This document shows, one piece after another, positions 10,759 to 56,570 of a stretch of 62,081 bases of DNA. A model generated the notes under the pieces. That model had not been told where the DNA came from and did not search any database. It saw nothing but the letters and a program-made list of their open reading frames with translations. This DNA is from Verrucomicrobiota bacterium (lineage in GTDB: Bacteria > Verrucomicrobiota > Kiritimatiellia > SS1-B-03-39 > UBA6053). Numbering within the stretch: position 1 is the first letter of the stretch; each line of letters starts with the position of its first letter. The stretch lies in NCBI GenBank assembly GCA_020831625.1, contig JAFIGD010000029.1:1-62081 (forward strand). Direction: 5' to 3'. Both the position numbers and the translations under genes were made by a program.

Positions 10759-10801
10759 GTGAGAGGAACCCCTGATCTTTGAGGCCAGGAATCCCTGGGG
10801 A

Positions 10802-11100
10802 GGGGCGGCATTCCTGCCGCACACCAGAGTCACTCGTCCGTGCCTGTCCGTGCCGGTCCGTGCAAATCCGTGCCCCACACCCTTTTGCGCCGCGGCCTGC
10901 GAACAAGGCCGGGCGTCAACAGCCGACTTCCGGCCCGAACAAAACCCCAAAAAAAACCACAATTTAATTCCTCGACAATCTGGATTGGGATCTGTTGGCT
11001 ACAGACCGAAAGAAACCCCATGTTCGAAGCAACCTTCCATCCACAATTCCCGCAGCTCCCGTGCGATCACGGGAGGCGGAAGCGGCTTGAGTCCGGTGCG
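10802..11100 (+). repeat. Cassette-array repeat, copy 1
   Basis: First of eight same-direction copies. Order: GGCGGCATTCC start, a TCCGTGC tandem block (about 10828-10870), a CCTTTTGCGCCGCGGCC hairpin block, an A-rich tract, the core hairpin CTCGACAA...GGATTGGGATC (10971-10998), a conserved ATGTTCGAAGCAACCTTCCA stretch at 11020, and a CCCGTG-CGAT-CACGGG hairpin (11058-11073). It fills most of the 400-bp gap after nasA and is followed at once by a promoter and antitoxin remnant. Confidence 0.8.
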
Positions 11101-11124
11101 TCAATACATTTTTCTCCGGACCTA

Positions 11125-11153
11125 TTGACACGAAAAGAGGAGCAGGATAGGAT
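11125..11153 (+). promoter_or_regulatory. Sigma70-type promoter, leaderless geometry
   Basis: TTGACA (11125-11130), 17-bp spacer, TAGGAT (11148-11153). The ATG at 11160 lies 7 bases past the -10 end, where transcription should begin, so the mRNA is predicted to be leaderless. The promoter at 19943-19971 is nearly the same sequence. Confidence 0.6.
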
Positions 11154-11159
11154 GGAAAC

Positions 11160-11288
11160 ATGAACACAGAGCAGGAAGTACGCAGCAGTGTCATAGTTCT
11201 TTCGGCGAGCGAACGCACCAGCTTGGCGCATGAACTCATCCTCAACCGCAACATGCCAAACAAGGGCCCCCATGCCAAATACAGCTGA
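11160..11288 (+). pseudogene. 5' remnant of an addiction-module antitoxin gene
   Basis: The first about 23 codons (LSASERTSLAHELIL) match the start of the antitoxin at 19978, base for base in long stretches. Then the similarity ends and the frame stops after 42 codons. It overlaps the start of a second antitoxin gene at 11272. The promoter and 5' end of one antitoxin gene have evidently been joined to another, a recombination product. Confidence 0.6.
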
Positions 11289-11499
11289 AATCATTCGCGG
11301 AGCCGAATCTCTCCCGGTGGAGGAAAGAATGCTTGTCGTCGACTCCCTGTTGCGCACCCTGAACCCTCCCGATCCGGAGATCGACCAACAATGGGCGGTT
11401 GTCGCGAAACGAAGGCTTGAAGAACTCCATTCCGGCCGGGTATCCGCCGTCCCCGGTGAAGAAGTTTTTGAAAACATTCGCCGTCGATTTGCAATATGA
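11272..11499 (+). CDS. Putative addiction-module antitoxin, TIGR02574-like
   Basis: 75 residues with the family pattern: N-terminal helix with LPVEERMLVVDSLLRTL, then NPPDPEIDQQWAVVAKRRLEEL and a short tail VPGEEVFENIRRRF. Proteins of this type neutralise ParE/RelE toxins. The start at 11272 lacks a clear ribosome site, and the gene probably depends on the promoter at 11125. The stop overlaps the start of a broken toxin frame (ATGA), the usual order antitoxin then toxin. With the toxin destroyed, the antitoxin may be a fossil or an anti-addiction factor. Confidence 0.65.
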   Translation: MPNTAEIIRGAESLPVEERMLVVDSLLRTLNPPDPEIDQQWAVVAKRRLEELHSGRVSAVPGEEVFENIRRRFAI

Positions 11500-11594
11500 C
11501 CTTTGATTTCCATCCGGAAGCGGAAAGAATTTTCATCCTTGCCGTAATGCACCTCCACCGCGAACCGGACTACTGGAAGCACAGGGATGTATAA
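11496..11594 (+). pseudogene. Internally deleted ParE/RelE toxin remnant
   Basis: 32 codons: the start MTFDFHPEAE is typical of a ParE-family N terminus and is joined directly to IFILAVMHLHREPDYWK, the usual C terminus. About 60 central codons are missing, so the toxin fold cannot form. It overlaps the antitoxin stop as ATGA. The same kind of lesion occurs in the toxin at 20202. Confidence 0.7.
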
Positions 11595-11613
11595 AGACGT
11601 TTACAGTGAGAAG

Positions 11614-12012
11614 CGGTTTTTTGGGGACGGAGCGGCATTCCCCACACGCCCCGCGTGGCAACCAGCCCCACACCAGGCTCACCCATCCGTGCCTGTCCGT
11701 GCAGATCCGTGCCCTGCCGCACACAATAGAAAGTATTTTTTACAGAAGGTAACGAAGAGAACGAAGCCATTCCACTGGTTTTTTTGACGGGATGGACAGG
11801 ATTGACGGGATCGTGCGGGGGGTTGGGGCGGCGGAACTGCGCGGCGCAGCCGCCATGGAGTGCTTTAGCGAATGTTATGAGCTACAGCCTTTTGTGCCGC
11901 AGAGTGTGGATGTGGCCGGGCGTCAACAGCCGACTTCCGTCCCGGGACAAAAACCCTCAGATCAATTCCTCGACAACCCGGATGGGGATCGGTTGACTTT
12001 TGGCGGGCACTA
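11614..12012 (+). repeat. Cassette-array repeat, copy 2
   Basis: Contains GGAGCGGCATTCC, the TCCGTGC block (about 11690-11715), an ACAGAAGGTAACGAAGAGAA block, a TGACGGGATGGACAGGATTG block, the CCTTTTGTGCCGC block and the core CTCGACAACCCGGAT (11969-11994). The last third (ATGTTCGAAGC and the CCCGTG hairpin) is absent; the copy stops shortly before the next TA pair. No gene was seen in 11595-12055. Confidence 0.75.
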
Positions 12013-12055
12013 AAAATCCTTGATTCCGAGTGCAATGAGCATTAAGTTCTTTATC

Positions 12056-12274
12056 ATGGTAACTACACTACAAGTTGAGCAGATGTCGCGGACAGAGAAG
12101 CTTCAGGTCATGGAGACTCTTTGGGCCGCTTTGTCCGTGCCTGACTCCGAGATGGAGTCGCCTGCCTGGCATGCTGACGCACTCAGGGAAACCGAAGACC
12201 GGGCCAGTCGCGGTGAAGAACGCATGGTGGATTGGGATGTTGCCAAGCGGGCACTGAGGAATCGTTTTGAATGA
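12056..12274 (+). CDS. Addiction-module antitoxin, TIGR02574-like
   Basis: 72 residues with the family layout: helix VEQMSRTEKLQVMETLWAAL, then ESPAWHADALRETEDRASRG and VDWDVAKRALRNRFE at the end. Its stop overlaps the toxin start as ATGA, so the two are translationally coupled. The ATG at 12056 fits the family start. A weak promoter (TTGATT at 12020, TAAGTT at 12043) would place transcription at or just before this ATG, like the other TA modules here, but the match is poor. Confidence 0.78.
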   Translation: MVTTLQVEQMSRTEKLQVMETLWAALSVPDSEMESPAWHADALRETEDRASRGEERMVDWDVAKRALRNRFE

Positions 12275-12576
12275 GGATCAAGGTATTATCCTCTGCCGTT
12301 GATGATCTTTCCGCCGGAAGAATATTCTACGAGCACCAGGCAGAGGGAGTTGGAGCATATTTTTTCGACTCTCTCTTTTCAGACATAGATTCTCTCGCTC
12401 TCTATGCCGGGATTCACCCAATCATCCACGGTTACCACCGGATGCTGTCCAAAAGATTTCCGTACGCGATATATTATAAGGTTGAGAATGACCTGGCTGT
12501 TGTATGGCGCGTGCTCGACCTTCGAAGAAATCCTGACAGCATTCGGGATGCGCTGGGGAAAAGAAGAACAAGATAA
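12271..12576 (+). CDS. ParE/RelE-family toxin
   Basis: 101 residues, full length for this family: N-terminal helices (SAVDDLSAGRIFYEHQAEGVGAYFFDSLFSDIDSL), a central strand with HGYHRMLSKRFPYAIYYK and a C-terminal strand VENDLAVVWRVLDLRRNP. The RFPYAIYY motif and final Arg-rich strand are typical of ParE-like gyrase or ribosome inhibitors. It pairs with the antitoxin just upstream and is the only complete TIGR02574-type pair in the array. Which target it poisons cannot be told from sequence. Confidence 0.8.
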   Translation: MRIKVLSSAVDDLSAGRIFYEHQAEGVGAYFFDSLFSDIDSLALYAGIHPIIHGYHRMLSKRFPYAIYYKVENDLAVVWRVLDLRRNPDSIRDALGKRRTR

Positions 12577-12579
12577 AAA

Positions 12580-12945
12580 CCGGAATTTATTACAGAAGGA
12601 AGCAAAGGGAGCAAGGCATGTCCGCTGCTTTCTTGACGGGATGAACTGGATCAACGGGATCGTGCAGGGGGATGGGGGCGGCGGAAATGTGCGCGTAGTG
12701 CCTTGGAGTGCTTTAGCGAATGTTATGAGCTACACCCTTTTGCGCCGCGGCCTGAGAACGATGCCGGGCGACAACAGCGGGCATTCGGCCCGGGACAAAA
12801 ACCCCAAAAAACCACAGTTTAATTCCTCGACAATCCGGATTGGGATCGGTTGATTGTCGGCAGAAAGCAAACCCCATGTTCGAAGCAAGCGTTCATCTTC
12901 AACTTCAGCGGCATCCGTGCTCCTGCAAGATGCGGGCACGGCGTT
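12580..12945 (+). repeat. Cassette-array repeat, copy 3
   Basis: Contains the TTACAGAAGG block, the TTGACGGGATGAACTGGATC block, GCGGAAATGTGCGCGTAG, CTTTAGCGAATGTTATGAGC, the CCTTTTGCGCCGCGGCCTG block and a fully palindromic core with arms CGACAATC/GATTGTCG (12828-12859). It then has ATGTTCGAAGCAAGC at 12876, after which the sequence departs from the others. A TCCGTGC block in reverse sense (GCACGGACAGCACGGACAGC, 12946-12965) follows, just before the four-helix gene. Confidence 0.75.
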
Positions 12946-12996
12946 GCACGGACAGCACGGACAGCACGGACCGCGGTTGTGTCGGGAGGGCATTTG

Positions 12997-13656
12997 ATGG
13001 GGAATGAGGGATTGGGGGATTTGCTCCCGCCAAGTGGCGGATACCGGAACCTGAAAACCTTCCGCTTGGCGCGGTTGGTCTATGACATCACCGTTCGTTT
13101 CTGTGATCTGTATGTGCCGTTGTCGTCGAGGACCCATGATCAAATGGTGCAGGCGGCCAGGTCCGGAGTTCAGAATATCGCCGAAGGCAGCGCGGCATCG
13201 GTGACCTCGCAAAAAATGGAAATGAAGCTCACGGGTGTGGCCTGGGCGTCGCTGGGAGAGTTGGAACTGGATTTTGAGGATTACCTCCGACACTGGGGGC
13301 TTCCCCAATGGGAGGGTGATCATCCCGTATTGTGCCGGTTCAAGGCCACGCGCTGCGCCGATCTTCCCGCTTTCCGCGCCTGGATCGCCACGGAACTCCG
13401 GCATCCGGATTCGGCTTCGGTGCGTCCGTGCGAATCCGCGCAGGTCCGTGCCCTGCAGTGCCCGCCCGGCCTGCGCGGACGACAGGACCGCCCGGATGCC
13501 TACGCGGCCAACGGAGCGCTCTCGCTGCTGAATCTGGTCCGCCCCTGGCTGGTCCGTCAGCTTGGCGCCCAGGGAAATGCATTCTTGGAAAAAGGCGGGT
13601 TCACGGAACGATTGTACAAAGCCCGCTCGGGTGCCAGGCGTCATCAGTGGACTTGA
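12997..13656 (+). CDS. Four-helix-bundle (23S rRNA intervening-sequence-like) protein
   Basis: 219 residues. The N-terminal half (TFRLARLVYDITVRFC, QMVQAARSGVQNIAEGSA, GELELDFEDYLRHWGL) is the S23/four-helix-bundle family. The C terminus (GALSLLNLVRPWLVRQL, GGFTERLYKARS) is the suffix domain found in longer members. The start at 12997 follows GGGAGGG. The family is often encoded in rRNA inserts or isolated islands and its role is unclear. Oddly, the segment around 13420-13460 (SVRPCESAQVRAL) is translated from the TCCGTGC repeat block that otherwise lies between genes, so a repeat has inserted in frame. Confidence 0.75.
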   Translation: MGNEGLGDLLPPSGGYRNLKTFRLARLVYDITVRFCDLYVPLSSRTHDQMVQAARSGVQNIAEGSAASVTSQKMEMKLTGVAWASLGELELDFEDYLRHWGLPQWEGDHPVLCRFKATRCADLPAFRAWIATELRHPDSASVRPCESAQVRALQCPPGLRGRQDRPDAYAANGALSLLNLVRPWLVRQLGAQGNAFLEKGGFTERLYKARSGARRHQWT

Positions 13657-13689
13657 GGTTTCTTGAGCCTTTTCCAATGAACTCCAGAG

Positions 13690-14030
13690 AGGGGAGCCTT
13701 CCCCACGCGTCCCGCGCAACAAACCGCCGCACACCAGAGTCACCCGTCCGTGCCTGTCCGTGCAGGTCCGTGCACTGCCGTGCCCTACACCCTTTTGCGC
13801 CACGGCCTGAGAACAAGGCCGGGCGTCAACAGTGGGCTATCGGCCCGGGACAAAAAACCCAAAAACCCCAAAAAAAACCACAATTTAATTCCTCGACAAT
13901 CCGGATGGGGATCGGTTGATTGTCGGCAGAAAGCAAACCCCATGTTCGAAGCAAGCTTCCATTCACAACCCTTGCGGCCCCAGTGCGATCACGGGAGGCG
14001 GGTGCGGCTTTAGTCCGCCGCGTATGCGGG
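13690..14030 (+). repeat. Cassette-array repeat, copy 4
   Basis: Close to copy 1 in layout: CCCCACGCGTCCCGCG, TCCGTGC block (about 13745-13785), CCTTTTGCGCCACGGCC hairpin block, A-rich tract, core 13892-13925 with arms CGACAATC/GATTGTCG, ATGTTCGAAGCAAGCTTCCA at 13942, and a weakened CAGTG-CGAT-CACGGG hairpin near 13980. The remaining 170 bases before the next operon hold no recognisable gene. Confidence 0.8.
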
Positions 14031-14203
14031 GATGTCCTCGTCGACGGCCAAACGGACCTGGGCCCAGTCGGATCTGTCGTTGGTGTCGGTTTTCGGGTGG
14101 AGTGGAGTGAGCTGGACCGAAGAAAAAGCAAAAACTTAGAAAAAATGACGGTTTCTATCGGTTTCGGGTTGTAAAGTCATGTGTAAAGTGGGATAGTTGA
14201 ACC

Positions 14204-15001
14204 ATGTCCGATCGAATCCATCCCCCACTGAAGCTGCCCCGCAGCCCCTTGATTTTTGTGCTGGCCCAGGTTCGTTTTCCCGAGTCGCTGGGAATTAAGG
14301 AGCGCATTCCCGTGATACAAGATGCCTTGCGTAAACTTGGATACCTGAAGGTGAATCAAAGGGAAATCATCCAAACGCGCAGAGATTCACAGAACAACGT
14401 GATCTCAAAGCAAATCCACAACCAATGGGAGTTTATAGACCGGGCGGGAACCCAGTCCGTCTTGGTGGACCCCAGATTTGTGAATGTGAATGCTTCAGAA
14501 TATGATGTGTTTGAGGCGTTTCAAAAATGTGTGGCGAAGGTTCTGGGGGTTGTGGCTTCTTGCATTGAGCCTGGTTTAATCGAGCGGCTGGGGCTGCGGT
14601 ATGTGGATTTGATTTCTCCATGTGAAGGACATGGAATGGTTGACTATGTTGACCCGGCGTTAAGGGGTTTCCAAATCGATCCAGACAAAGATCGTGAAGC
14701 CTACTACATTGAGACCATAACGAAAACGGGAGAGCATAAACGATTTATTCATCGTTACACCGAAACAGAGCGTGGATTGGGCTTCCCTCCCGACTTACTG
14801 CCTTCAGGCTTGCGCCTCAGGCAAGATCCCCGCCGTGACAGCGTTTTCGGGCTATTGGATATGGATCATATTCTGACCCAAGAGTTGAATGTGGAACCGG
14901 ATTCAATCCTGGAGGCGTTTACTGATCTGCATGCCCACCACATCAAAGCGTTTAAACGTAGTGTTACGCAAGGAGCTTTGGACGAATGGAGTCAACCATG
15001 A
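14204..15001 (+). CDS. TIGR04255-family protein
   Basis: 265 residues. The start (PPLKLPRSPLIFVLAQVRFPES) and the middle (LIERLGLRYVDLISPCEG) match the sporadically distributed TIGR04255 family, which has no assigned function; members have the N-terminal beta-rich half and a conserved GLRYVN/D motif. There is no signal peptide, so it is probably cytoplasmic. It is first in a three-gene operon and its stop overlaps the next start. GC and codon use are lower than in the nas block, in line with acquisition. A conflict or defence role is possible from its scattered distribution but is inference. Confidence 0.7.
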   Translation: MSDRIHPPLKLPRSPLIFVLAQVRFPESLGIKERIPVIQDALRKLGYLKVNQREIIQTRRDSQNNVISKQIHNQWEFIDRAGTQSVLVDPRFVNVNASEYDVFEAFQKCVAKVLGVVASCIEPGLIERLGLRYVDLISPCEGHGMVDYVDPALRGFQIDPDKDREAYYIETITKTGEHKRFIHRYTETERGLGFPPDLLPSGLRLRQDPRRDSVFGLLDMDHILTQELNVEPDSILEAFTDLHAHHIKAFKRSVTQGALDEWSQP

Positions 15002-15684
15002 GCCCAACCGCCAGAGATTATGGAAAGTACCTGGGAATCGGCTTGATTGCATCCGGTGCTTGCGCTGAAGAACCACGAATCAATATATGGAATGATTCAG
15101 GTTTTGATGTGGATTTTGTCTTTTCCGGATGCCCCAACGAGGAACTTCCTCTTCCATGGGGCACCACGGATGAAGGGATTAGCTACTATTTGTCCAGCAT
15201 CGCTTATCCCGAAATGGAGATCCATGATCAAATCGCCGCCGAACAGGTTCCCGCCCTCCTGCGGAACCTGAAGCGGGTTTTGAACCTGACCACCACCGAT
15301 CTGGCGAGTATTTGTGGTGTAAGCCGCCCCACTATTTACAGTTGGCGCAAGGGGGGAAGCATTGATTCTCAAAACCTCAAGCGGCTGGACACGCTCTCAA
15401 AACTTCTCACGTCCTGGTCGGCGCGGATGAACATGGGACTCATTTCAGCCCCCTCCGTGCCCGCCAGCCCGGAATTGAACAGAATGCTTTTTGCGGAGAC
15501 GCTGGATGAGCTGGCGATTGAGAAGCTCCTGGCCTCGCTGGCCGAAACAGCAAGAGTCCTGGAGGCGAAACGTCCTAACTCGGGCCGGGAACTGGCGGAA
15601 GCGCACGGCCTGGAACCCCTTTCCGAAGACGCCCGGGAACGAAACATGATGATGGTGCGCCTGTCCGCAGGCACGGGGAGATAA
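14986..15684 (+). CDS. HTH-domain regulator-like protein in TIGR04255 operon
   Basis: 232 residues. The N-terminal half carries an unassigned acidic domain (IWNDSGFDVDFVFSGCP). A helix-turn-helix lies around residues 100-130 (LTTTDLASICGVSRPTIYSWRKG), and the rest is helical. The start at 14986 has AAGGAG 10 bases upstream; the alternative ATG at 14998 would give an ATGA overlap with the preceding stop. It probably binds DNA and controls the operon, or senses a signal through its N-terminal part. Located between two unknown proteins in one transcription unit. Confidence 0.65.
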   Translation: MESTMSPTARDYGKYLGIGLIASGACAEEPRINIWNDSGFDVDFVFSGCPNEELPLPWGTTDEGISYYLSSIAYPEMEIHDQIAAEQVPALLRNLKRVLNLTTTDLASICGVSRPTIYSWRKGGSIDSQNLKRLDTLSKLLTSWSARMNMGLISAPSVPASPELNRMLFAETLDELAIEKLLASLAETARVLEAKRPNSGRELAEAHGLEPLSEDARERNMMMVRLSAGTGR

Positions 15685-15690
15685 AACGGC

Positions 15691-16488
15691 ATGGGTGCGG
15701 GAGAGGAGGCTCAACAGATTCGGAACCGGGGCTGGACACAGGGGTCCGTTCTGCCACCCTGCCAGATTCCGGTACTCGCCCCCATGGAAACGGAAGCCGG
15801 CTGGCTGGTCATCACACAGGCCTGCGATTTGGTTCACACAGACTTCGAACAGGAGCCGTATGTGGAACTGCTCCCCCTTCATGCCGTCCCCGACACGCAG
15901 CGGGGGCAAATCGGCAACTTTCTCCACGGGAAAAACCCCCGTGTGCTTTGTTTCGAGATCGGCCGCAGGCTCTTCCAAGTGTACGGCCGCGAGCGGGAAC
16001 GCCTGGACCGCAAGGTGCTTGCGACCGTTTTGCCTGATCCCGGCTTGCGATTGGAAGGCGCGATTCTGCGCATGCTGACCAACTGGCTGGCAAAACGATA
16101 TATCCGCCCCGCTCTGCCCGATGCCTTCAATGCCCGCCTTGGCGAAAAACCCCATGGAAAGAAAATCCGCGGGCTGCTGAAGCAAAAAGGGCATTGGATT
16201 GAATCCATCTTGATCCAATGCTCTCCCCCCCGGGATGAACTGACAGACAGCCAAAACTACAAGGCCGTTTTGTGGTTGCTGATGCGGGTCGACCTCTATG
16301 ATATTCCTTCGGCCCGCGATGAGGCGCTGGACCTCGCGGAATCCTTCGAAGAACTGCTCGAAAATGTCAAAGGGATTGATTTCCTTGATTGCAGCCTGCT
16401 CAGTGAAGCGGAGGTAAGTCTCGACGACCTGCGGTCTTTTGTGCCATGGGATTTTGACGACTTGAGCCACCGTGACGACCTTTCCTGA
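15691..16488 (+). CDS. Unknown protein with VITQACDLVH motif
   Basis: 265 residues, soluble. The segment GWLVITQACDLVHTDFEQEPYVE near residues 37-57 resembles the 'SQ(D/T)CDIV' motif seen in uncharacterised proteins of mobile and defence loci. The remainder is mixed alpha/beta with an acidic C terminus (EVSLDDLRSFVPWDFDDLS). It begins 6 bases after the HTH gene, so it belongs to the same operon. Conserved Cys and Asp in QACDLV could be metal or catalytic residues, but this is a guess. No function is assigned. Confidence 0.6.
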   Translation: MGAGEEAQQIRNRGWTQGSVLPPCQIPVLAPMETEAGWLVITQACDLVHTDFEQEPYVELLPLHAVPDTQRGQIGNFLHGKNPRVLCFEIGRRLFQVYGRERERLDRKVLATVLPDPGLRLEGAILRMLTNWLAKRYIRPALPDAFNARLGEKPHGKKIRGLLKQKGHWIESILIQCSPPRDELTDSQNYKAVLWLLMRVDLYDIPSARDEALDLAESFEELLENVKGIDFLDCSLLSEAEVSLDDLRSFVPWDFDDLSHRDDLS

Positions 16489-16550
16489 GAAACATCCCCC
16501 CCTTGCATTTTTGAATACATCAACAGACCCTAAAGCCGGGACTTCCACCC

Positions 16551-16567
16551 TTTCCGACCGTCGGAAA
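16551..16567. promoter_or_regulatory. Single TTTCCGA-N3-TCGGAAA palindrome
   Basis: Perfect 7-bp arms with CCG centre, 62 bases after the preceding stop. Same consensus as the pairs at 1462 and 61955, but unpaired. Could be an operator or part of a terminator for the TIGR04255 operon. Confidence 0.4.
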
Positions 16568-16689
16568 ACGTTCAAAATCCTCTTTTCCTTGAACCAACTG
16601 AAAAACGTTTCGAACAGAGGTACAAGTCACGACATGGAACCCTTCGGCTCTGGATCGCCTGAACATGCTTGGTGAAAAATCAAAAATCC

Positions 16690-16800
16690 TCTCTCAAAAC
16701 CCTCGACAACCCGGATTGGGATCGGTTGATTGTCAGCTGAAAGAAAAACCCATGTTCGAAGCAACATTCCATCCACAATCCCCCTCGAGCCGGACGGCGT
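16690..16800 (+). repeat. Cassette-array repeat, copy 5 (short)
   Basis: Only the last third is present: core CTCGACAACCCGGATTGGG (16702-16736) and ATGTTCGAAGCAACATTCCA at 16752. The TCCGTGC and CCTTTTG blocks and the final CCCGTG hairpin are missing. It still separates the TIGR04255 operon from the next TA pair. Confidence 0.7.
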
Positions 16801-16817
16801 TTTCATAAAATTTCTCG

Positions 16818-16846
16818 TTGCCGACTGTGGTACTTAGTGCTATAGT
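16818..16846 (+). promoter_or_regulatory. Promoter of RelE/HTH module
   Basis: TTGCCG (16818-16823), 17-bp spacer, TATAGT (16841-16846). The GTG at 16853 is 7 bases after the -10 end, the same distance as at 11160, 19978 and 50798. Confidence 0.5.
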
Positions 16847-16852
16847 ATAAAC

Positions 16853-17221
16853 GTGAAAGACCTCATGACAAAACAGTTTGGGAAATGGGTGTCGAATCAA
16901 TCGATGGATACCAGCCAATTGAAAACCGCACTGGAGGAAGTCAGACAGGGCATATGCGAAGCCAACCTTGGCGGCCACCTGTACAAGAAAAGAATCCCTT
17001 TTAAAGGGCACGGAAAAAGGGGAAGCGGGAGAACGATCGTATGCTTTAAGAAGGAGCAAATCGCTATTTTTATCCACGGCTTCGCAAAGAATGAAACCGA
17101 CAACCTTTCACCCAAAGAACTCAAAGCCTTCAAAGCTTTAGCAAAAATATTAACCGAACTCACCCCCGGTCAGATTTCAACCGCACTGAAAAACGGAGAC
17201 TTCAAAGAGGTAAACCAATGA
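16853..17221 (+). CDS. RelE/HigB-like toxin (COG4737 type)
   Basis: 122 residues from GTG 16853. The pattern FGKWVSNQSMDTSQLKTAL, then GGHLYKKRIPFKGHGKRGSGRT, CFKKEQIAIFIHGFAKNETDN and LSPKELKAFKALAKIL is that of the RelE/HigB-like toxins that pair with a downstream HTH antitoxin. They act as ribosome-dependent mRNA endonucleases in studied members. The GTG start is favoured by promoter geometry. ATG 16865 is the alternative and fits the family N terminus equally well. The stop overlaps the antitoxin start (ATGA), so here the toxin comes first. Confidence 0.78.
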   Translation: MKDLMTKQFGKWVSNQSMDTSQLKTALEEVRQGICEANLGGHLYKKRIPFKGHGKRGSGRTIVCFKKEQIAIFIHGFAKNETDNLSPKELKAFKALAKILTELTPGQISTALKNGDFKEVNQ

Positions 17222-17523
17222 GAAAATCAATTGTCGATTCCATCCAGAACACCGTGGCTGATCTAAATAAGAGCGGGATTGTCGATGACATCACGATGAA
17301 GAACATCGAAACCCTTTGCCTGCCCGAAGTCCATGACTACTCGCCGGAGAGTATTGTATCCCTCCGGCGTCAAAACCACCTCAGCCAGGCGGCGCTTGCC
17401 GCAGTGCTCAATATCAGTCCCTCCACTGTCCGTAAATGGGAACAGGGCACGAAAAAGCCTGCGGGAGCATCCAAAAAACTGCTGGACCTCGTGGAGCGTA
17501 AAGGCATCGAAGTGCTGGTGTGA
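17218..17523 (+). CDS. HTH antitoxin (HigA/XRE type)
   Basis: 101 residues. A C-terminal XRE-type helix-turn-helix runs from about residue 50 (SIVSLRRQNHLSQAALAAVLNISPSTVRKWEQGTKK), preceded by a 45-residue segment that would bind the toxin. It should neutralise the partner and repress the shared promoter at 16818. Toxin-first order and the ATGA overlap match HigBA-like modules. Confidence 0.82.
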   Translation: MRKSIVDSIQNTVADLNKSGIVDDITMKNIETLCLPEVHDYSPESIVSLRRQNHLSQAALAAVLNISPSTVRKWEQGTKKPAGASKKLLDLVERKGIEVLV

Positions 17524-17589
17524 ACGCAGTAGCTTTGCTGCCTAAAATCAGTCTCTGCTCCTTCCATAAAATTCTCGACAACCAGGATA

Positions 17590-18260
17590 AACACGTATCC
17601 TTTAGGCGGCAGGGGGGGGGGAAGTTCTCACGGAGGCGCAGGGGCACGGAGGGGAGCATAAAGTCTTTGAGGAGGAGCGGCATTCCCCACACGCCCCGCG
17701 TGGCAAGCCGCCGTCCACCAGGCTCATCCGTCCGTGCCTGTCCGTGCAGATCCGTGCCCTGCCGCACACCATGGTAACAATTTTTTACAGAAGGCAACGA
17801 AGAGAACGAAGCCATTCCACCGTTTTTTTTTGACGGGATGAACTGGATCAACGGGATAGTGCGGGGTGCCTCTCACGGAGGCACAGCGGCACGGAGGGGA
17901 GTATAACGTCATTGGATCGGCGGCATTCCCCGCGCGTCCCGCGTAACAAACCGCCGCCCACCAGGCTCACCCGTCCGTGCCTGTCCGTGCAGATCCGTGC
18001 CCTGCCGTGCCCTACACCCTTTTGCGCCGCGGCCTGAGAACGAGGCCGGGCGTCAACAGCCGGCTTCCGTCCTGGGACAAAAACCCAAAAAAACAACAGT
18101 TTAATTCCTCGACAACCCGGATTGGGATCGGTTGATTGTCGGCAGAAAGAAAATCCCATGTTCGAAGCAACCTTCCATCCACAATCCCTTCGGCACCCGT
18201 GCGATCACGGGAGGCGGGGGCGGTTTGAGTCCGGTGCGTCCCCGGGGATGTCCTTCGGGC
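17590..18260 (+). repeat. Cassette-array repeat, copy 6 (long)
   Basis: Composite copy. It has a CTCACGGAGGCGCAGGGGCA block (about 17626), a TCCGTGC block (17729-17760), the ACAGAAGGCAACGAAGAGAA block, the TGACGGGATGAACTGGATC block, a second CTCACGGAGGCACAGCGGCA block (17873), a second TCCGTGC block (17970-18005), CCTTTTGCGCCGCGGCCTG, the core at 18108-18142, ATGTTCGAAGCAACC at 18158 and a perfect CCCGTG-CGAT-CACGGG hairpin (18196-18211). No gene was seen in 17524-18386. Confidence 0.8.
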
Positions 18261-18386
18261 GGATGGGGGAGAAACCTTTTTCTATCTGCTGGTGAGTCAA
18301 AACTTGACAATTCAGGCTTCTTTGGGGCCGAGTGCTCTCGCCCCTAAGAGCTTGATTGTGGACGTCACATCAAGTTCGGCATGGCT

Positions 18387-19238
18387 CTACGCCTCGCTTG
18401 CAAAATCCCGCAGGGCCTGTTTGTTTTCTTCATTCACGGTTTCCGCCCCCTGGCCTTTAATTTTCTCGAGGACTTCCCCGGCAGCGTTTTTCTTTTTCTT
18501 ATCGTCCGGCTCTTTAATGACGAAGAGAAGATGTTCAGGATGATCGGTCAGCTTGTTCAAACGATCCAGACGGCTGCACCAGCGGTCACCATGTTCAAGA
18601 ATACTGGTGGCATCCCGCTTGTCCAGATGTAGAGGTTTGATCGCACGGAGAACCTTCCCGTCCTTTTCTTTAACAAACGGTAGTTTCACCTTGTAGTCCG
18701 TTTCAGGGTCCAAAAAAGTTCGTTCCGTGTAGAGATTATCGAGTTTCTGCTCTTTCAAAAAACGAGCCAGACGTTTTTGCATGACTTTTTCCTGATAGTC
18801 GTGCTGATTTGCAAATTGACGCTCCACGTAGTGCTCAAAGAGAGCCTCAAGGGTTGTTTCGGGATGATCGGTCGCCACGGTCCGGATGCCGCTGTACCGC
18901 ATGATGCTCTCACGGGGACGGACCACTTCCCTAAATAAATTGATGAGGCTTTTCTCGTCCAGATCCAGTTCATGCTGCCCGGCATCTTCGTCAGGATTCA
19001 CCATTTGCGCAACCCGCTGCAGCTCCTTGTCACAGAGGGTTCTCGCGGTGGTGTAGATCCCGGGGTCCATCTCAGGAAAAAAACGGGTAATACGGTCCCG
19101 TCGCCGGGTTTCGATTCTAAATTCAAAACGGCGCGGGCGGTTGCAGATCATCACGATCCCGACATTCGCGAATTCCTCTGTCTCCGGATAAGGGAGAAAG
19201 CGGATCACGGCATAGTTGCATATGGCTTTCATGTTCAT
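18387..19238 (-). CDS. DUF3037 family protein, orphan
   Basis: 283 residues. The start (CNYAVIRFLPYPETEEFANVGIVM) is the DUF3037 hallmark. In other genomes this family usually sits next to a HipA-like kinase gene, suggesting a toxin-antitoxin-like pair; here no HipA-like gene is adjacent. It is the only cassette in the array read on the minus strand. No signal peptide or membrane helix. The C-terminal part is charged and helical. The ATG at 19238 gives the family start; a second ATG lies two codons in. Confidence 0.75.
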   Translation of the reverse strand: MNMKAICNYAVIRFLPYPETEEFANVGIVMICNRPRRFEFRIETRRRDRITRFFPEMDPGIYTTARTLCDKELQRVAQMVNPDEDAGQHELDLDEKSLINLFREVVRPRESIMRYSGIRTVATDHPETTLEALFEHYVERQFANQHDYQEKVMQKRLARFLKEQKLDNLYTERTFLDPETDYKVKLPFVKEKDGKVLRAIKPLHLDKRDATSILEHGDRWCSRLDRLNKLTDHPEHLLFVIKEPDDKKKKNAAGEVLEKIKGQGAETVNEENKQALRDFASEA

Positions 19239-19329
19239 GGTTCTGTCCTGAATAGGTCGGCGACCTTTTCGTATCCTGACACAACATCCTCAATTCGTTC
19301 AAGGGAAAAATCCGGGTGGGTTTGGGGGA

Positions 19330-19930
19330 TTTGACGCTTTTACAGAAGGTAACGAAGAGAACGAAGCCATTCCACCGTTTTTTTTGACGGGATGGACTGG
19401 ATCGACGGGACAGTGCGGGGTGCCTCTCACGGAGGCACAGCGGCACGGAGGGGAGTATAAAGTCATTGGATCGGCGGCATTCCCCACGCGTCCAAGTTGG
19501 TAAGCCCCCCACACCAAAGTCACCCGTCCGTGCCTGTCCATGCAAATCCGTGCTCTGCCGTGCCCCACACCCTTTTGTGCCGCGGGTTGTCGGTGAGGCC
19601 GGGCGTTGAGGGAGGGTTTGGGTTGCGGTGGAAATGTGCGCGTAGCGCCTTGGAGTGCTTTAGCGAATTTTATGAGCTACAGCCTTTTGTGCCGCGGGGT
19701 GAGAACGAGGCCGGGCATCAACAGCCGACTTCCGTCCCGGAACAAAAACCCCAAAAAACCACAACTTAATTCCTCGACAACCCGGATTGGGATCGGTTGA
19801 TTGGCGGCAGAAAGAAAATCCCATGTTCGAAGCAACCTTCCATTCACAATTCTTAGGTTTCCCGTGCGATCACGGGAGACGGGGGCGGTTTGAGTCCGGC
19901 GCGTTCTTGGTGCGCCATCCAATACATTTT
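19330..19930 (+). repeat. Cassette-array repeat, copy 7 (long)
   Basis: Contains the ACAGAAGGTAACGAAGAGAA block, TGACGGGATGGACTGGATC, CTCACGGAGGCACAGCGGCA, a TCCGTGC block (19525-19558), two CCTTTTGTGCCGCGG blocks, the core at 19773-19806, ATGTTCGAAGCAACCTTCCA at 19823 and a CCCGTG-CGAT-CACGGG hairpin at 19861-19876. It is followed directly by the promoter of the next antitoxin, as in copy 1. Confidence 0.8.
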
Positions 19931-19942
19931 TCCCAGGACCTA

Positions 19943-19971
19943 TTGACACGAAAAGGGGAGCGGAATAGGAT
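19943..19971 (+). promoter_or_regulatory. Sigma70-type promoter, leaderless geometry
   Basis: TTGACA (19943-19948), 17-bp spacer, TAGGAT (19966-19971), start codon 7 bases later at 19978. Sequence nearly the same as the promoter at 11125. Confidence 0.65.
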
Positions 19972-19977
19972 AAATAC

Positions 19978-20205
19978 ATGAGCACAGTGCAAGAAGCCCG
20001 CAGCATGGTCATGACACTTTCGGCAAGCGAACGCGCCAGCTTGGCGCATGAACTCATCCTGAGCCTTGACGACCCGATGGATACCCAACTCACCGCCTCG
20101 CAGGAGGTGGAAATACAGCGGCGTCTGGCCGTGGTGCGCGAGGGAACCGCTTCAGGACGCCCTGCAAACGAGGTCTTTGCTGATGTTCGGAAAAAATACG
20201 TATGA
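19978..20205 (+). CDS. Addiction-module antitoxin
   Basis: 75 residues with the family layout: VQEARSMVMTLSASERASLAHELILSL, acidic linker, EVEIQRRLAVVREGTASGRPANEVFADVRKKY. It resembles the remnant at 11160 in its first third. The stop overlaps the start of a broken toxin frame (ATGA). Expression is probably from the leaderless promoter at 19943. With its toxin internally deleted, this antitoxin appears to be kept without its partner. Confidence 0.72.
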   Translation: MSTVQEARSMVMTLSASERASLAHELILSLDDPMDTQLTASQEVEIQRRLAVVREGTASGRPANEVFADVRKKYV

Positions 20206-20321
20206 CCGCAGTGACCTTACTGCAAGAAGCTGAGAATGAATCTTGTGAAAACGACCAAGTATGGGTCATCGCCATTGCGCACTGCAAACGCCGTATGGGA
20301 TATTGGAACGAAAGAACCTGA
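20202..20321 (+). pseudogene. Internally deleted RelE/ParE toxin remnant
   Basis: 39 codons: a short N-terminal stretch (TLLQEAENE) leads directly into DQVWVIAIAHCKRRMGYWNER, the usual C-terminal strand of the toxin family. The middle of the toxin is missing. Starts inside the antitoxin stop as ATGA. Second example of this lesion in the array, after 11496. Confidence 0.68.
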
Positions 20322-20384
20322 CGTGAAGGCTTGCTATTCAATATTGAATTGAAATATGCCTCTTTAATGCAAGGCGGGTAGGAT

Positions 20385-20975
20385 TCGGCGAGGGGTGGCA
20401 TTTCTGCCGCACACCATGGTAACTGTTTTTTACAGAAGGCAAAGAAGAGAACGAAGCCATTCAACCGGTTTTTTGACGGGATGGACTGGACCAACGGGAT
20501 CGTGCGGGGGGATGGGGGCGGCGGAAATGTGCGCGTAGCGCCTTGGAGTGCTTTAGCGAATTTTATGAGCTACAGCCTTTTGTGCCGCGGAGTGTGGATG
20601 TGGCCGGGCGTTGTGGGCGGGTTTGGGTGGGAGGGCGGCAGCTCGCGGGACTCGCTTCACGCACTCCAGGGACGCTTCGCGTCGGGCGGCGGAACTGCGC
20701 GGCGCAGCCGCCCTGGAGTGCTTTAGCGAATTTTATGAGCTACAGCCTTTTGCGCCGAAGGTTGTCGTTGAGGCCGGGCCCCAACAGCAGCCATCCGGCC
20801 CGGGACAAAAAGCCAAAAAACCACAGTTTAATTCCTCGACAATCCGGATTGGGATCGGTTGACTTCGACTGAAAGAAAACCCCATGTTCGAAGCAACCTT
20901 CCATCCACAATCCCTTCGGCACCCGTGTGATCACGGGAGGCGGGAGCGGCTTGAGTCCGTCGAGCCGGCAAAAGT
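20385..20975 (+). repeat. Cassette-array repeat, copy 8
   Basis: Contains the TTACAGAAGGCAAAGAAGAG block, TGACGGGATGGACTGGACC, GCGGAAATGTGCGCGTAGCG, a doubled CTTTAGCGAATTTTATGAGC block (about 20560 and 20725), CCTTTTGCGCCGAAGG, the core at 20835-20865, ATGTTCGAAGCAACC at 20884 and a CCCGTG-TGAT-CACGGG hairpin (20922-20937). Last copy of the array. Confidence 0.78.
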
Positions 20976-21037
20976 CGTGTTGAGTGGGCCCCATTTCTAG
21001 CGTATAAATTTCATAACCAAACTCAATAAGGAATAAA

Positions 21038-21295
21038 ATGGACACAACTGAGAGTAAATTATCTTTCCGGGCTGAATGTGAAGTTTTCTATGGGGATGAG
21101 GTATTCACAGAAAAATCCGATGTCCAGATTTCCGTAGAGCTGGAGGAAAATGAGGATTATTCCGATTCCTGCTTCAGTAATTATAAAAAGATGTATCAAG
21201 CAACATTGGATCATTTAAATGTTTTAGCTGAAAAAACATGGGGGAAGTTTGAACCTCCTACATCAATCAATTTGAAGATAACTCCTATTCAGTAA
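21038..21295 (+). CDS. Small acidic hypothetical protein
   Basis: 85 residues, strongly acidic (VELEENEDYSDSC), with no membrane segment. The ATG at 21038 follows AATAAGGAATAAA, a usable ribosome site. The low GC contrasts with the nas genes. No family recognised. It follows repeat copy 8 and precedes the AAA ATPase by 120 bases, so it may belong to the same cassette. Confidence 0.5.
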   Translation: MDTTESKLSFRAECEVFYGDEVFTEKSDVQISVELEENEDYSDSCFSNYKKMYQATLDHLNVLAEKTWGKFEPPTSINLKITPIQ

Positions 21296-21414
21296 GAAAC
21301 AAAAAAACACCAAAAATGGCGGGCTACTCCGTTTTTCCGCTGCCACGGCAATGAAGTACATCTACGCCACCAAACAAGTCGGTGCGGATAAGCTTCGACA
21401 CCAGAAAGGATTAG

Positions 21415-22653
21415 ATGCGTAAGACACCTAGACCAGAAGACGTATTCACCCCGCGATCGGCGGTAGTTAACCCGAAAATGTATGTACTTCGGCAGAGTCT
21501 AGAAAATTCGCTAATCTCTGCGCTAAGGGGGCGACTCCATATCGTGATTCATGGAGAAAGCGGAACAGGAAAATCTTGGCTTTTCAAGAAAGTCCTCTCC
21601 GATGAAAGCGCCGAATATACAGTCGCCAATTTAGCTAATGCATCCCGACTAGGAAGCATCGCCGCCGAACTAAAGAACCTTGTGGATAGGGAGGAAACCG
21701 CCGTCAAAACTGGCTACGAAGAAGAGAAATTCGCTGAACTCAAGCCGGTTTTCGCATCAGTGAATCTTTCGCACAGAGGTTTGTATACTTACGGATCTAT
21801 GGAGCCTTTTGAAGCATGCTTGAAGATGCTTCGCATGAAGGCAGGAGTAAATATTGCAGCCCTGGTATTTGACAATCTGGAAGCCGCATTTACCGAACCA
21901 CTCCTCAAGGAACTCGCAGACTTACTTATTCTCTGTGATGACGAACGCTATGATCACTACAAAGTACGTATCATAATCGTCGGTGTTCCTTCCGGTATCA
22001 AAGAGTACTACTACAAGACACCACACCACAGCACAATAGCTAATCGTCTGTATGAGCTTCCAGAAGTTTCTCGTCTTTCTTTAGTTGAGGCCAAGACGCT
22101 TCTACGCAACGGCCTCATTGACGAGCTAAAATACTCTTGCGATAATCTTGACTCAATTCTCTCGCACATCGTATGGGTGACTGACAGAGTTCCGCAGATG
22201 TTGCACGAGTATGGTCTTGAACTTTCAAAACTGGCCGAAGTATCAGATCGGACCTTAACTGAGGACCTCATCGAACAAGCTGACAGTGCTTGGATGTTTC
22301 AATCGCTTCAACATGCTTATGCAGTGATTGAAAACCATATGAACGAACGTGAAACTCGGGCCGGGAGACGCAACCAAACGCTATTTGCATTGGGTTCAGT
22401 TGATGGAGAGCATTTTAGGGCACCTGAAGTCGAACACATATTACGCAAAGTGTTCCCTGTGTCAACCAAAGGCACTGCGCTGAATATACCACAGATGCTG
22501 TCCCATCTCGCAAGTGGTGATCGGCCCGTTATAAAGCGATCACCCAAAGGCGACGAGTATAGTTTTACCGATCCTCGGCTTCGCATGGTTCTTCGAGCGA
22601 TGCTTGTCAAAAATAATGAGGAACGCGTATTTAAGAGGCGAATGTCTAGATGA
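21415..22653 (+). CDS. AAA/STAND-like ATPase
   Basis: 412 residues. Walker A GESGTGKSW near residue 47 and Walker B ALVFDNLE near 158 mark a P-loop ATPase of the ORC/AAA type. About 260-330 is helical and 340-400 looks like a winged helix (VEHILRKVFPV...PVIKRSPKGDEYSFTDPRLRMVLRAML). A ribosome site AAAGGA lies before the ATG. Such stand-alone ATPases occur in defence and mobile islands as sensors or remodelers; its partner is unknown. It is followed by a 56-base imperfect hairpin and a membrane protein. GC is well below the window average, suggesting transfer. Confidence 0.7.
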   Translation: MRKTPRPEDVFTPRSAVVNPKMYVLRQSLENSLISALRGRLHIVIHGESGTGKSWLFKKVLSDESAEYTVANLANASRLGSIAAELKNLVDREETAVKTGYEEEKFAELKPVFASVNLSHRGLYTYGSMEPFEACLKMLRMKAGVNIAALVFDNLEAAFTEPLLKELADLLILCDDERYDHYKVRIIIVGVPSGIKEYYYKTPHHSTIANRLYELPEVSRLSLVEAKTLLRNGLIDELKYSCDNLDSILSHIVWVTDRVPQMLHEYGLELSKLAEVSDRTLTEDLIEQADSAWMFQSLQHAYAVIENHMNERETRAGRRNQTLFALGSVDGEHFRAPEVEHILRKVFPVSTKGTALNIPQMLSHLASGDRPVIKRSPKGDEYSFTDPRLRMVLRAMLVKNNEERVFKRRMSR

Positions 22654-22662
22654 AGGCTTCGG

Positions 22663-22727
22663 GCCTAACAAAGCCCTGAACCGGACTCTGAAAGCCTTGG
22701 GGTTGGCTTCCAGAGTCTGATTAGGGC
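22663..22727. other. attC-like imperfect hairpin
   Basis: GCCTAAC (22663) is followed by nested arms GCCCT/AGGGC, GGACTCTG/CAGAGTC and AAGCC/GGCTT with unpaired bases between them (22673-22727). This layout resembles integron attC recombination sites, and GCCTAAC fits the RYYYAAC box. The matching GTTRRRY box on the right is not found, and no T-run follows, so it is neither a perfect attC nor a clear terminator. Confidence 0.4.
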
Positions 22728-22751
22728 AACTTTATTTAAAAGGAAAAAATC

Positions 22752-23492
22752 ATGATTGAATGGCTAAATCAGAACCAAGGATTCGTCCTCGGGTTGCTCA
22801 CATTTGTTTATGTTGTGGCAACCATAATCCTAGTCATAATCAGCTTGGTCCAAGCAAAGCTCACAAGAAAGAGCCTAAAAAGCGCAGCAGAATCCGAGAA
22901 ACGACGATATCGACCGCATGTGCTGTTCGATCTGTATTCGGAGAACGTCGCAATATATGCATCGCTACAGAACACAGGGGCCACCCCTGCTTTCAACATC
23001 ACCCTATCTTTGTCGCCCGAGATATACTGTGAGATTAGGGGGCAAAAAAGAGAGTGCCCCCTTATTGGACAGAGTGTGTCTTTTCTCGCGCCAACTCGAG
23101 AAGTCCGCGATGCTTGTGCTTTTGGAGGCGAGTTTGGCAGCCACTTCCCAGAGCCAATCTTCACAGGATCTGTGTCATACGAAGACGCTGAGGGGTTTGT
23201 GTATAAGGAAGAATTTAAAATCGATCTCCGTGCCCAACGGCAATTACTTAGTATTGGTAAGAAAGATCCTGGAAAAGAGTTGGAGAAGATTGCCAATGCA
23301 TTAAAGGATCTCACCTCTACAAAATTCAATCCTCTCATTCGAGTCATGTGTGAAGATCAATACAGACAAGAACAAGAAGAGATGATCTTCGAAGCACAAA
23401 AACAACTTGAGGATCACAAGAATTCACTCAATCAACCCGTTGAAAATAACAATGATTCAGATTCACCTCAGCTCAAGGCTGACGATTTTTGA
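22752..23492 (+). CDS. Membrane-anchored hypothetical protein
   Basis: 246 residues. A single N-terminal transmembrane helix (GLLTFVYVVATIILVIISLV, residues 15-34) is followed by a basic segment and a beta-rich domain (VAIYASLQNTGATPAFNITL) that could be Ig-like. The C terminus is helical and acidic. A ribosome site AAAAGGAA precedes the ATG. Proteins of this shape often accompany ATPases in accessory islands, but no specific family is assigned. Confidence 0.6.
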   Translation: MIEWLNQNQGFVLGLLTFVYVVATIILVIISLVQAKLTRKSLKSAAESEKRRYRPHVLFDLYSENVAIYASLQNTGATPAFNITLSLSPEIYCEIRGQKRECPLIGQSVSFLAPTREVRDACAFGGEFGSHFPEPIFTGSVSYEDAEGFVYKEEFKIDLRAQRQLLSIGKKDPGKELEKIANALKDLTSTKFNPLIRVMCEDQYRQEQEEMIFEAQKQLEDHKNSLNQPVENNNDSDSPQLKADDF

Positions 23493-28100: not shown

Positions 28101-29104
28101 CCGGGATCGCGTTCGCCTTCGGGCTTGCGTTCGATGAGCTTTTTGCCGCCCTGTTTGCGTTCGGCGAGGCCGATGATGTGGAGGAGTTCGCTGTAAAAGC
28201 GGCGGTCGAGGGAGTTGCTGTCGTTGGCGAAGGGGAGCTTGAGCAGGTGGGTGGGGGAGAGGAGTTTGGAGAGAATGACGAGTGACGAATGACGAGTGTG
28301 AGGAGTGTCGAGTGACGAATGACGAGTGTGAGGAGTGTCGAGTGACGAATGACGAGTGACGAATGGGGGAGAGGGGACAGGAGCGCCGATCGCCGCATCG
28401 GCTGGGGCGAAGGGGGATGGAGGGGATGGAGGGGATGGGGAACGCGAACTTCGAACATCGAACGTTGAACGTTGAACGTCGAGGTCCCGCAAATCAATGT
28501 GTGTGAACTCCATCAGCGGCGACGCAAGCTCCAACGCCGGCGAGGCGATGTCTTTGTAGAAATGCTCGGTTTTGGTGCCGGCGAGGCGTTTTCCCTCGAA
28601 TTCGCGGAAGAGGCGGACGAGGGTTTTGTCGCGGGCGAAGCAGCGTTCGAACACCCGCGCGTCGAAGATGAACCATTCGTGGACGTTGGTGACGATCAGG
28701 TGGCGGAGTTCCAGGTTATGAAGGGTGATGCGTTCGCGCAGGTAGTAGAGCAGCAGTTCCTGCAGGGCCTTGGTGTTGAGCCGGTCGCGGGTGGGCATTT
28801 CCGCGGCGTTGGCGGGGCTTTTGACCTCCAGGATCACCCCCACCGGCGTTTTGGCATCGCTGCCGTTGTGGATCACCAGATCATTGCGGCCTTTTGTATT
28901 GATAAAGCGGTCGGGCGCGAAGCCGGTGTGCTTGAGCAGGTCGCTGAGCAGGTTTTTGTGGAACTCCTCGGACTCGGCGGGATTGACGCTGTCGAACAGC
29001 GTGGCCAGCGCGGCTTTGAAGCCCTCCATGTCGGCGCGGTTGGGCTTCACCTTTAAAAAGGCTTTGTTCAGTGCCTGGCGCGGTTTCAGTCGGATCGGGG
29101 CCAT
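25157..29104 (-). CDS. Eco57I-like/type IIG restriction-modification enzyme
   Basis: 1315 residues in one chain. A PD-(D/E)XK-type nuclease motif appears at VILEVKSPAN near residue 93. Methyltransferase motif I is CDPAVGSGHFLV near 600 and motif IV NPPYVQIQ near 883. The C-terminal 400 residues match TaqI-like target-recognition domains (PYLRGRDVKKW, and LSDLAAKCAAAKK at the end). It should cut and methylate DNA by itself. ATG 29104 follows AAGGA. Unusual: residues about 205-280 (Ser/Pro/His-rich, with RHSSLDTPHT repeats) are encoded by dispersed-repeat DNA inserted in frame between the nuclease and helical domains. Activity with this insert is uncertain. Confidence 0.85.
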   Translation of the reverse strand: MAPIRLKPRQALNKAFLKVKPNRADMEGFKAALATLFDSVNPAESEEFHKNLLSDLLKHTGFAPDRFINTKGRNDLVIHNGSDAKTPVGVILEVKSPANAAEMPTRDRLNTKALQELLLYYLRERITLHNLELRHLIVTNVHEWFIFDARVFERCFARDKTLVRLFREFEGKRLAGTKTEHFYKDIASPALELASPLMEFTHIDLRDLDVQRSTFDVRSSRSPSPPSPPSPFAPADAAIGAPVPSPPFVTRHSSLDTPHTRHSSLDTPHTRHSSLVILSKLLSPTHLLKLPFANDSNSLDRRFYSELLHIIGLAERKQGGKKLIERKPEGERDPGSLLENAIRQLEARDNLAHIPNPKQYGETREERLFNIALELVITWTNRVLFLKLLEAQLLSYHKGDPAYAFLNYKKIGSYDDLDALFFQVLAREPDARDPEIAARFRNVPYLNSSLFEPSDIEHHGLFVCQLKDRPLALHPGTVLRDSRGKRIEGERDALEYLFTFLDAYDFTSEGTGEIQEDNKTLINASVLGLIFEKINGYRDGSFFTPGFITMYMCRETIRLAVLRKFKEVKGWDCQSLPQLADRIEDRAEANRVINALKFCDPAVGSGHFLVSALNEIIALKSELGLLCDRQGRRLKNYHVEVVHDELFITDEDGDFFEYKPSLPESQRVQEALFHEKQTLIENCLFGVDLNPNSVKICRLRLWIELLKHAYYKSENQLETLPNIDINIKCGNSLISRFDLDSDLKQALRKSKWTIDGYRVAVMSYRNAQTKEQKRKMRQLISDIKGDFEAEIHNNDPRVRRKNKLTGRLNELTLQTRLFEQTPKEKAAWNKEVKTLTADIQKLDDEIETIRSNRIFEDAFEWRFEFPEVLDNEGAFIGFDAVIGNPPYVQIQSLPADIKEGLKNSGYQSFGKTADLYCLFFERALRILKPDGVLTFITSNKFYRAAYGKALRKLLTDELTLRQLIDFGDAPVFEAIAYASILLGEKVSPSKDHKFPACTWLPEDEFENLDESLDRIGFPLLQSRLTPDAWRLENPETFNLLEKIQRLGTPLGEVVEGRFYYGIKTGFNDAFVVDAETRDQLIAEDPKSAELLKPYLRGRDVKKWTPIHADLYLIRIESSENKTHPWSKLQPEEAEACFRQTYPVIAKRMLDGEYREKLIKRSDQGKYFWELRSCQYWNDFSNPRIIYPDIYEHQSFAYAEDEIYSVNTTYFIARGEKWLCAYLNSGLTEFVYSKLSNQIRGGYMRAFTEVMEKVPVPPMNDAQTAELSDLAAKCAAAKKDGDEKALADHEARIDTIVYKLFQLSPEEIGLVGSSIQ
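28280..28484. repeat. Dispersed-repeat insertion within the restriction gene
   Basis: A 30-bp unit is repeated 2.8 times at 28280-28363 (starts GAGTGACGAATGACGAGTGT). A GATGGAGGGGATGGAGGGG stretch and a GAACGTTGAACGTTGAACG run (about 28460-28480) follow. All periods keep the reading frame, giving the repeated peptide RHSSLDTPHT. Confidence 0.8.
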
Positions 29105-56563: not shown

Positions 56564-56570
56564 GATCGTC

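Follow-up and report, generated by a model that had tools for sequence, protein, structure and literature searches.

A lineage-specific array of repeat-headed toxin-antitoxin and defence gene cassettes in a Verrucomicrobiota bacterium

The 62,081-nucleotide (nt) stretch of Verrucomicrobiota DNA analysed here (the window; contig C42 of genome G000, positions 1-62081) carries eight copies of a composite repeat, all on the + strand, each followed by one gene or operon. We conclude that this is a real, lineage-specific, repeat-headed cassette array in one bacterial species. The analysis shows the composition of the array, the restriction of one repeat module (module A) to arrays, one block of A plus gene that has been duplicated, cargo that occurs without A and, in a sister species (G001), another defence system at this border. 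Our best explanation is a fast-changing hotspot for defence and toxin-antitoxin (TA) genes in which a spacer that includes A was multiplied locally by duplication and ordinary recombination, and in this explanation we place about as much trust as doubt.

Organisation of the array

The original prediction, made from the DNA letters, described eight same-strand repeat copies, each followed by exactly one gene or operon. A degenerate core pattern, which gave no reversed-pattern control match in the genome, recovered the same eight copies in the window, and the one-to-one layout held for all of them. The cargo names proposed at that time were supported by family matches (PF09720, four-helix-bundle (TIGR04258/TIGR02436), TIGR04255, RelE plus helix-turn-helix (HTH), DUF3037 and AAA ATPase). 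The array is bounded on the left by the gene at 7225-10758, which we take to be of nitrate-reductase type, and on the right by a type IIG restriction enzyme (25157-29104). The DUF3037 gene lies on the - strand, so that 15 of the 16 headed units (8 in the window, 7 on contig C49 and 1 on contig C80; C108 is excluded, as the contig ends there) point away from their repeat. The features are as follows.

10777..10950 (+), dispersed-repeat filler modules M1-M2, preceding A copy 1
10951..11102 (+), module A copy 1, core 10971-10997
11125..11153 (+), promoter-like TTGACA-17-TAGGAT in the gap between A and cargo, its end 7 nt short of the ATG at 11160
11160..11499 (+), short antitoxin-like remnant, then PF09720 antitoxin (11272-11499)
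11620..11948 (+), filler modules
11949..12006 (+), module A copy 2, truncated past the core
12038..12576 (+), PF09720 antitoxin (12038-12274) and partner gene (12271-12576) with no Pfam/NCBIfam match
12584..12805 (+), filler modules
12806..12920 (+), module A copy 3
12997..13656 (+), four-helix-bundle protein (TIGR02436 / TIGR04258; PF05635 below cut-off)
13696..13871 (+), filler modules
13872..14038 (+), module A copy 4
14204..16488 (+), three genes, for a TIGR04255 protein, a protein with weak HTH matches and a protein without family match
16682..16782 (+), module A copy 5; upstream filler module not detected
16818..16846 (+), promoter-like TTGCCG-17-TATAGT in the A-cargo gap, 7 nt short of the GTG at 16853
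16853..17523 (+), RelE toxin (PF06296) and HTH antitoxin (PF01381)
17568..17588 (+), ninth, truncated A core (AAAATTCTCGACAACCAGGAT), ~45 nt past the HTH gene
17606..18087 (+), filler modules, two rounds
18088..18254 (+), module A copy 6
18387..19238 (-), DUF3037 protein; match to candidate defence model PDC-M66B
19338..19752 (+), filler modules
19753..19904 (+), module A copy 7
19943..19971 (+), promoter-like TTGACA-17-TAGGAT between A and cargo
19978..20205 (+), PF09720/TIGR02574 antitoxin, kin of the copy-1 cargo via a duplicated block
20387..20814 (+), filler modules
20815..20962 (+), module A copy 8
21038..23492 (+), small acidic protein, AAA ATPase (PF13401; weak PDC-S59) and one more protein
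25157..29104 (-), type IIG restriction-methylation enzyme adjoining the array; a paralogue adjoins the C49 array

The core pattern search found no more A cores in the window downstream of the last unit (21038-23492).

Module A and the filler modules

The copies had been described as one repeat family. They do share module A, but the repeat is composite and its filler modules are dispersed genome-wide. A blast search of the own genome with a 392-nt spacer gave 42 matches, 14 on C42, 7 on C49 and 21 on nine other contigs (C31, C35, C43, C59, C61, C63, C80, C93 and C108; some of them short and weak), and at C59 and C63 the filler modules sit between other genes. The occurrence of the repeats among all kinds of genes, which the original prediction named as evidence against a cassette array, is seen for the filler modules but not for A.

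The copy number of A was taken from a loose search for its core, CTCGACAAYCCGGATTGGGATCG, because the blast and model searches scored only part of their candidates (among first-look candidates in G000, the spacer blast scored 40 of 62 and the family blast of A 40 of 47; the sequence model scored 9). With up to 3 mismatches the loose pattern gave 25 matches, against 1 for the reversed-pattern control. The 17 matches with 0-2 mismatches were taken as real, and the eight with 3 mismatches, on other contigs, look like chance. The 17 cores, 8 on C42, 7 on C49 and one each on C80 and C108, make the module nearly array-specific, and a tail-only piece of A lies at the end of contig C40. Several contigs stop in or near repeats, so further copies may be unassembled.

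In an alignment, the common left part of the copies consists of an A-rich tract and TTAAATTCCTCGACAAYCCGGATTGGGATCG. Past this part A extends for ~40 to >170 nt and joins the cargo at many different points, with cargo-side blast ends at ~55, 65, 101, 106, 115, 149-158, 167 and 181 of the 181-nt consensus. Diversity in the 11 full copies is lowest near AATTCCTCGACAA and GAAAGAAAACCCCATGTTCGAAGCAACC, and a permutation test gave no significant excess of conservation in the whole core over the remainder of A (p 0.12). The copies mostly cluster by array in a small tree with low supports; there are exceptions, such as W16702, which sits with the C80 copy.

A second array and the distribution of module A

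Contig C49 carries a second array of 7 A copies, all in one orientation, whose cargo comprises PF09720 and RelB-like antitoxins, HicAB, a DUF2971 protein and proteins that fit no Pfam family. Five of the 7 PF09720 matches in the genome lie within the two arrays; the three same-genus relatives have 18 such matches across 18 different contigs. A HicA/HicB pair related to the A-headed HicAB unit on C49 occurs without module A in the window (52692-53368, -). At L084 on C108 (5563-7079), a pair of HTH and nucleotidyltransferase genes (AbiEii-like, below cut-off) is followed by an A copy where the contig stops; this may be a third array.

The comparison genomes are all of other species. A search for the core in relatives, as the original prediction had advised, yielded partial matches in two same-family genomes and full copies in G000 only. 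The core pattern gave a lone 3-mismatch match in 1 of 57 relatives. In the family blast (E 0.1), 7 of 11 genomes had matches, with full copies again only in G000; the best partial matches were to positions 83-154 of 181 in G009 and 86-125 in G003, and the rest were at most 30 nt. The sequence model matched 3 of 345 genomes of the class (G000, and partially G003 and G009) and 1 of 387 of the phylum (G000); the two sets overlap, both include G000, and these large searches used stricter filters. Searches of plasmid and phage collections gave no match to A.

Exact-pattern scans turned up 15 stretches in GTDB and 6 in IMG/VR, each stretch with one match and A-like only at the pattern itself, apart from short A matches at E about 1; the pattern fits 15 of the 17 known cores, and the collections may omit records close to the window's own genome. 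Direct-repeat loci in G001 and G003 were considered as sister arrays but judged, on these loci, to be those genomes' own intergenic filler or tandem gene copies (G001 C242). At L153 (G001 C234, 3232-10082) lie same-strand intergenic repeats that belong to the sister species itself, with 19 direct and 0 inverted pairs of at least 60 nt. The C80/panD locus offered no clean comparison as an empty site, since the compared relatives carry other sequence upstream of panD.

Exchange at the border and separability of repeat and cargo

The original prediction had advised a search of close relatives for different cassettes between copies, and G001 shows different cargo at the same border. In that genome a C5 methylase and a NaeI endonuclease come after the nitrate-reductase-type gene (70% protein identity). 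A defence/TA hotspot is marked by defence cargo that varies while the border is conserved, as seen in the array of G000 versus the NaeI pair of G001. This border comparison is of one pair of genomes, as the other two same-genus genomes have no match to the nitrate-reductase-type gene.

The antitoxin unit of copies 1 and 7 recurs without A on contig C290 of G001 (82% over 238 nt). The homology begins at the -35 box, and upstream lies G001's own sequence. Additionally, C49 contains an 88-nt remnant of the promoter and first codons of this unit, its start codon lost, ~700 nt behind an A core; the sequence directly upstream belongs to other genes. Thus A and its cargo are separable. The G001 antitoxin gene (L152, C290, 3402-3713, -) matches the window unit at 19978 in its front (82%) and a different C49 antitoxin in its rear (90%). 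It is likely a recombinant of two antitoxin genes, and such a chimera fits recombination between units.

Within the array, A and the antitoxin were duplicated as one block (10877-11242 vs 19679-20060, 81%), and multi-module spacer blocks are repeated (e.g. 17783-18053 vs 19338-19606, 88%). Recombination between copies, one of the two mechanisms first offered for the array, is compatible with the duplicated block of A plus antitoxin. A homoplasy test gave no sign of exchange among A copies (p 0.12-0.62, four distance limits). At copies 1, 5 and 7 (1 and 7 being duplicates) the gap between A and gene holds a promoter-like site whose end is 7 nt upstream of the start codon. In the scans as a whole, the counts of such sites stand only a little above expectation or close to it (9 against 4.9, sd 2.4, for the window; 12 against 9.1, sd 3.0, for the C49 stretch).

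Hairpins and the leader frame

Two hairpins had been proposed. The CCCGTG/CACGGG stem has 89% of cells paired in the 11 of 16 aligned copies that have it. The CGACAATC/GATTGTCG hairpin is weak by folding and pairing: folds of two copies on both strands were no better than shuffles (z -0.40, -0.59, 0.42 and 1.06), three of its eight pairs are disrupted, in 8, 10 and 11 of the 16 copies, and 73% of its cells are paired. Taken jointly, the two helices have 79.5% of cells paired versus at most 49.8% when slid, and their covariation score was reached by 3 of 500 shuffles, although relatedness alone can produce such a score. These joint results count against calling the CGACAATC/GATTGTCG hairpin weak. 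Rfam gave no matches at gathering scores for L004, L007, L009, L010 and L039, and none up to E 0.5 for window positions 10000-22000.

Module A might instead be a mobile gene-head, in which a conserved GAAAGAAAACCCCATGTTCGAAGC block would start a short leader frame that passes translation to whichever gene is behind. The ATG is kept in 14 of 16 copies, opening a frame, and among the 27-column stretches of the full copies (11 in number) its block varies least (0.079, narrowly ahead of 0.084 at the left edge of the core). On C80 the leader frame continues into a 382-amino-acid (aa) protein. Furthermore, in 5 of 11 units the stop codon of the leader overlaps the next gene's start, versus 1.5 expected (P 0.003); this test excluded one duplicate, two ATG-less copies, the - strand unit and the C80 fusion, and the copy-1 start was one base off, which left the overlap unaffected. 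However, several gene starts were chosen by hand, which favours overlap, and in three units of the window the promoter-like site downstream of A would give messages without A. The leader codons also lack purifying selection, with an in-frame ratio of nonsynonymous to synonymous polymorphism (pN/pS) of 0.95, on which grounds the leader peptide was rejected as a real protein. The tails of C49_3432 and C49_8797 look coding-like by eye (synonymous changes in PLPLN), with 0.48 in two of three frames, and another tail pair has an in-frame pN/pS of 0.69; neither was relied on. We regard the gene-head as quite an unlikely account of the module. In sedentary integrons, according to an extract of PMC8876359, short open reading frames in attI/attC aid translation by termination-reinitiation.

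Integron features and candidate enzymes

The original prediction noted an integron-like layout with sites unfit as attC and no integrase, and all three statements stand. Direct repeats alternate with short cassettes, in 8 and 7 copies with one orientation per array. RYYYAAC is one core box of attC. The other, GTTRRRY, is given as the core site in an extract of PMC8876359. Neither box was found on either strand of the 16 aligned A copies (the C108 copy lies outside this set), and no RYYYAAC-GTTRRRY pair 40-150 nt apart lies between -150 and +300 of the core; canonical attC sites are thereby excluded for the 16 copies. A recombination site at the 3' end is likewise lacking, as the final unit of each array and the C80 gene have no A core behind them. 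An A core precedes the first unit of the arrays, so the polarity is that of a head and not a tail; exceptions are the truncated core at 17568 and the C108 copy, which lie close behind a gene. Every defining feature of integrons that we tested therefore fails except the layout.

No integron integrase scored above cut-off; the best TIGR02249 match, at 159 bits versus a cut-off of 265, was an IS91-linked recombinase. A Phage_integrase search of the genome, which is 96.29% complete, gave 4 matches, of which 3 were above the Pfam cut-off and scored; the fourth, on C87, was below it and unscored. The three are XerD, a XerC-like protein just under its NCBIfam cut-off, and one adjoining an IS91 transposase. 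To a decayed integron or CALIN (an attC array whose integrase was lost) we give almost no credence: the layout and the type of cargo would suit it, but the boxes are found in 0 of 16 copies, the polarity is that of a head, and no integrase exceeds the cut-off.

At L113 (G000 C100), the IS91 transposase adjoins the tyrosine recombinase. This pair, together with an A that is more uniform at one end and ragged at the other, would fit one-ended rolling-circle (IS91/Helitron-like) capture, with the fixed end of A as the replication origin of a non-autonomous element. Yet the C100 locus shares only chance-level short matches with the arrays (this locus was compared; other IS91 copies were not sought), and the left part of A has no hairpin beyond shuffles. 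Capture of this kind is very unlikely.

A dedicated recombination system using the repeat was the other mechanism originally offered. It is not supported, given the ragged cargo-side ends of A, the A-less antitoxin unit in G001 and its remnant on C49, the homoplasy test without exchange between A copies, and the lack of an obvious candidate enzyme in the own genome. As a rival explanation it would be an undescribed cassette-capture system of head polarity, with the fixed left part of A as its site and an enzyme that acts in trans or has since been lost. In favour of such a system, 15 of 17 cores lie in two same-strand arrays, the left end of A is the more uniform, the cargo is integron-like (small antitoxins, HicAB, RelE, orphans), and C108 may hold a third array, with an A copy after its HTH and nucleotidyltransferase pair. 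On the other side, no candidate enzyme was seen beside the arrays, and above the Pfam cut-off the genome holds only XerD, the XerC-like protein and the IS91-linked recombinase; the right junctions of A are ragged, antitoxin cargo occurs without A in G001, and conservation of the core does not significantly exceed that of the remaining A sequence (p 0.12). We consider the system unlikely. Equally doubtful is the fuller proposal that A is the site of a one-lineage capture system that stockpiles TA and defence genes in parallel arrays, supplies a translation start and uses an enzyme in trans.

Other features of the window

A single 3595-aa frame at 33087-43874 contains 37 DUF5122 beta-propeller stretches and Ig-like domains. 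At 54692-61864 an aldehyde dehydrogenase domain was confirmed, and we presume from the remaining genes that this is a bacterial microcompartment-like locus.

Discussion

Under the explanation that we favour, a defence/TA hotspot with a locally multiplied spacer, gene units, some with their own promoter-like sites, would sit between lineage-specific direct-repeat spacers made of filler modules and A. Ordinary (RecA-type) or illegitimate recombination within these spacers, rich in repeats, would bring units in or remove them, and local duplication of blocks of spacer plus gene would leave each array with its own version of A before its genes. We infer that the agent was RecA-type or illegitimate recombination and not a dedicated enzyme.

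Several points weigh against this explanation. Plain duplication does not call for A to head the units, nor for 15 of 16 of them to point away from it. In the alignment, A is more uniform on its left than on its right, and the homoplasy test detected no exchange among A copies. Additionally, the genome has a fourth tyrosine recombinase match, on C87 and below the cut-off.

If ordinary recombination suffices, a layout of repeat, gene and repeat is in itself no proof of a site-specific system, and other integrase-less arrays need a test of separability in which cargo with and without the repeat is compared. If the capture system is true, bacteria would have a second, unrelated route to stockpiling small defence genes.

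Among the listed titles and abstract openings of open-licence papers, no comparable array appeared. The filler modules, being modular and present at many other genome sites, are presumably comparable to REP/ERIC-like dispersed intergenic repeats; in contrast, full A cores occur only in the two arrays, at one locus with a single unit and at the end of one contig. The nearest likeness in layout is the chromosomal (sedentary) integron array, with directly repeated, species-specific elements of ~100 bp and small genes, several of them toxin-antitoxin; an extract of PMC8876359 describes near-identical, species-specific repeats of ~120 bp. The present array differs in having no attC boxes, a weak core hairpin, a repeat at the gene head and no IntI above cut-off. 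Defence islands and hotspots, such as the P2/P4 phage hotspots presented in an extract of PMC9122126, share with it the exchange of defence genes at one border in related species, whereas the array described here is punctuated at nearly every unit by one array-specific repeat.

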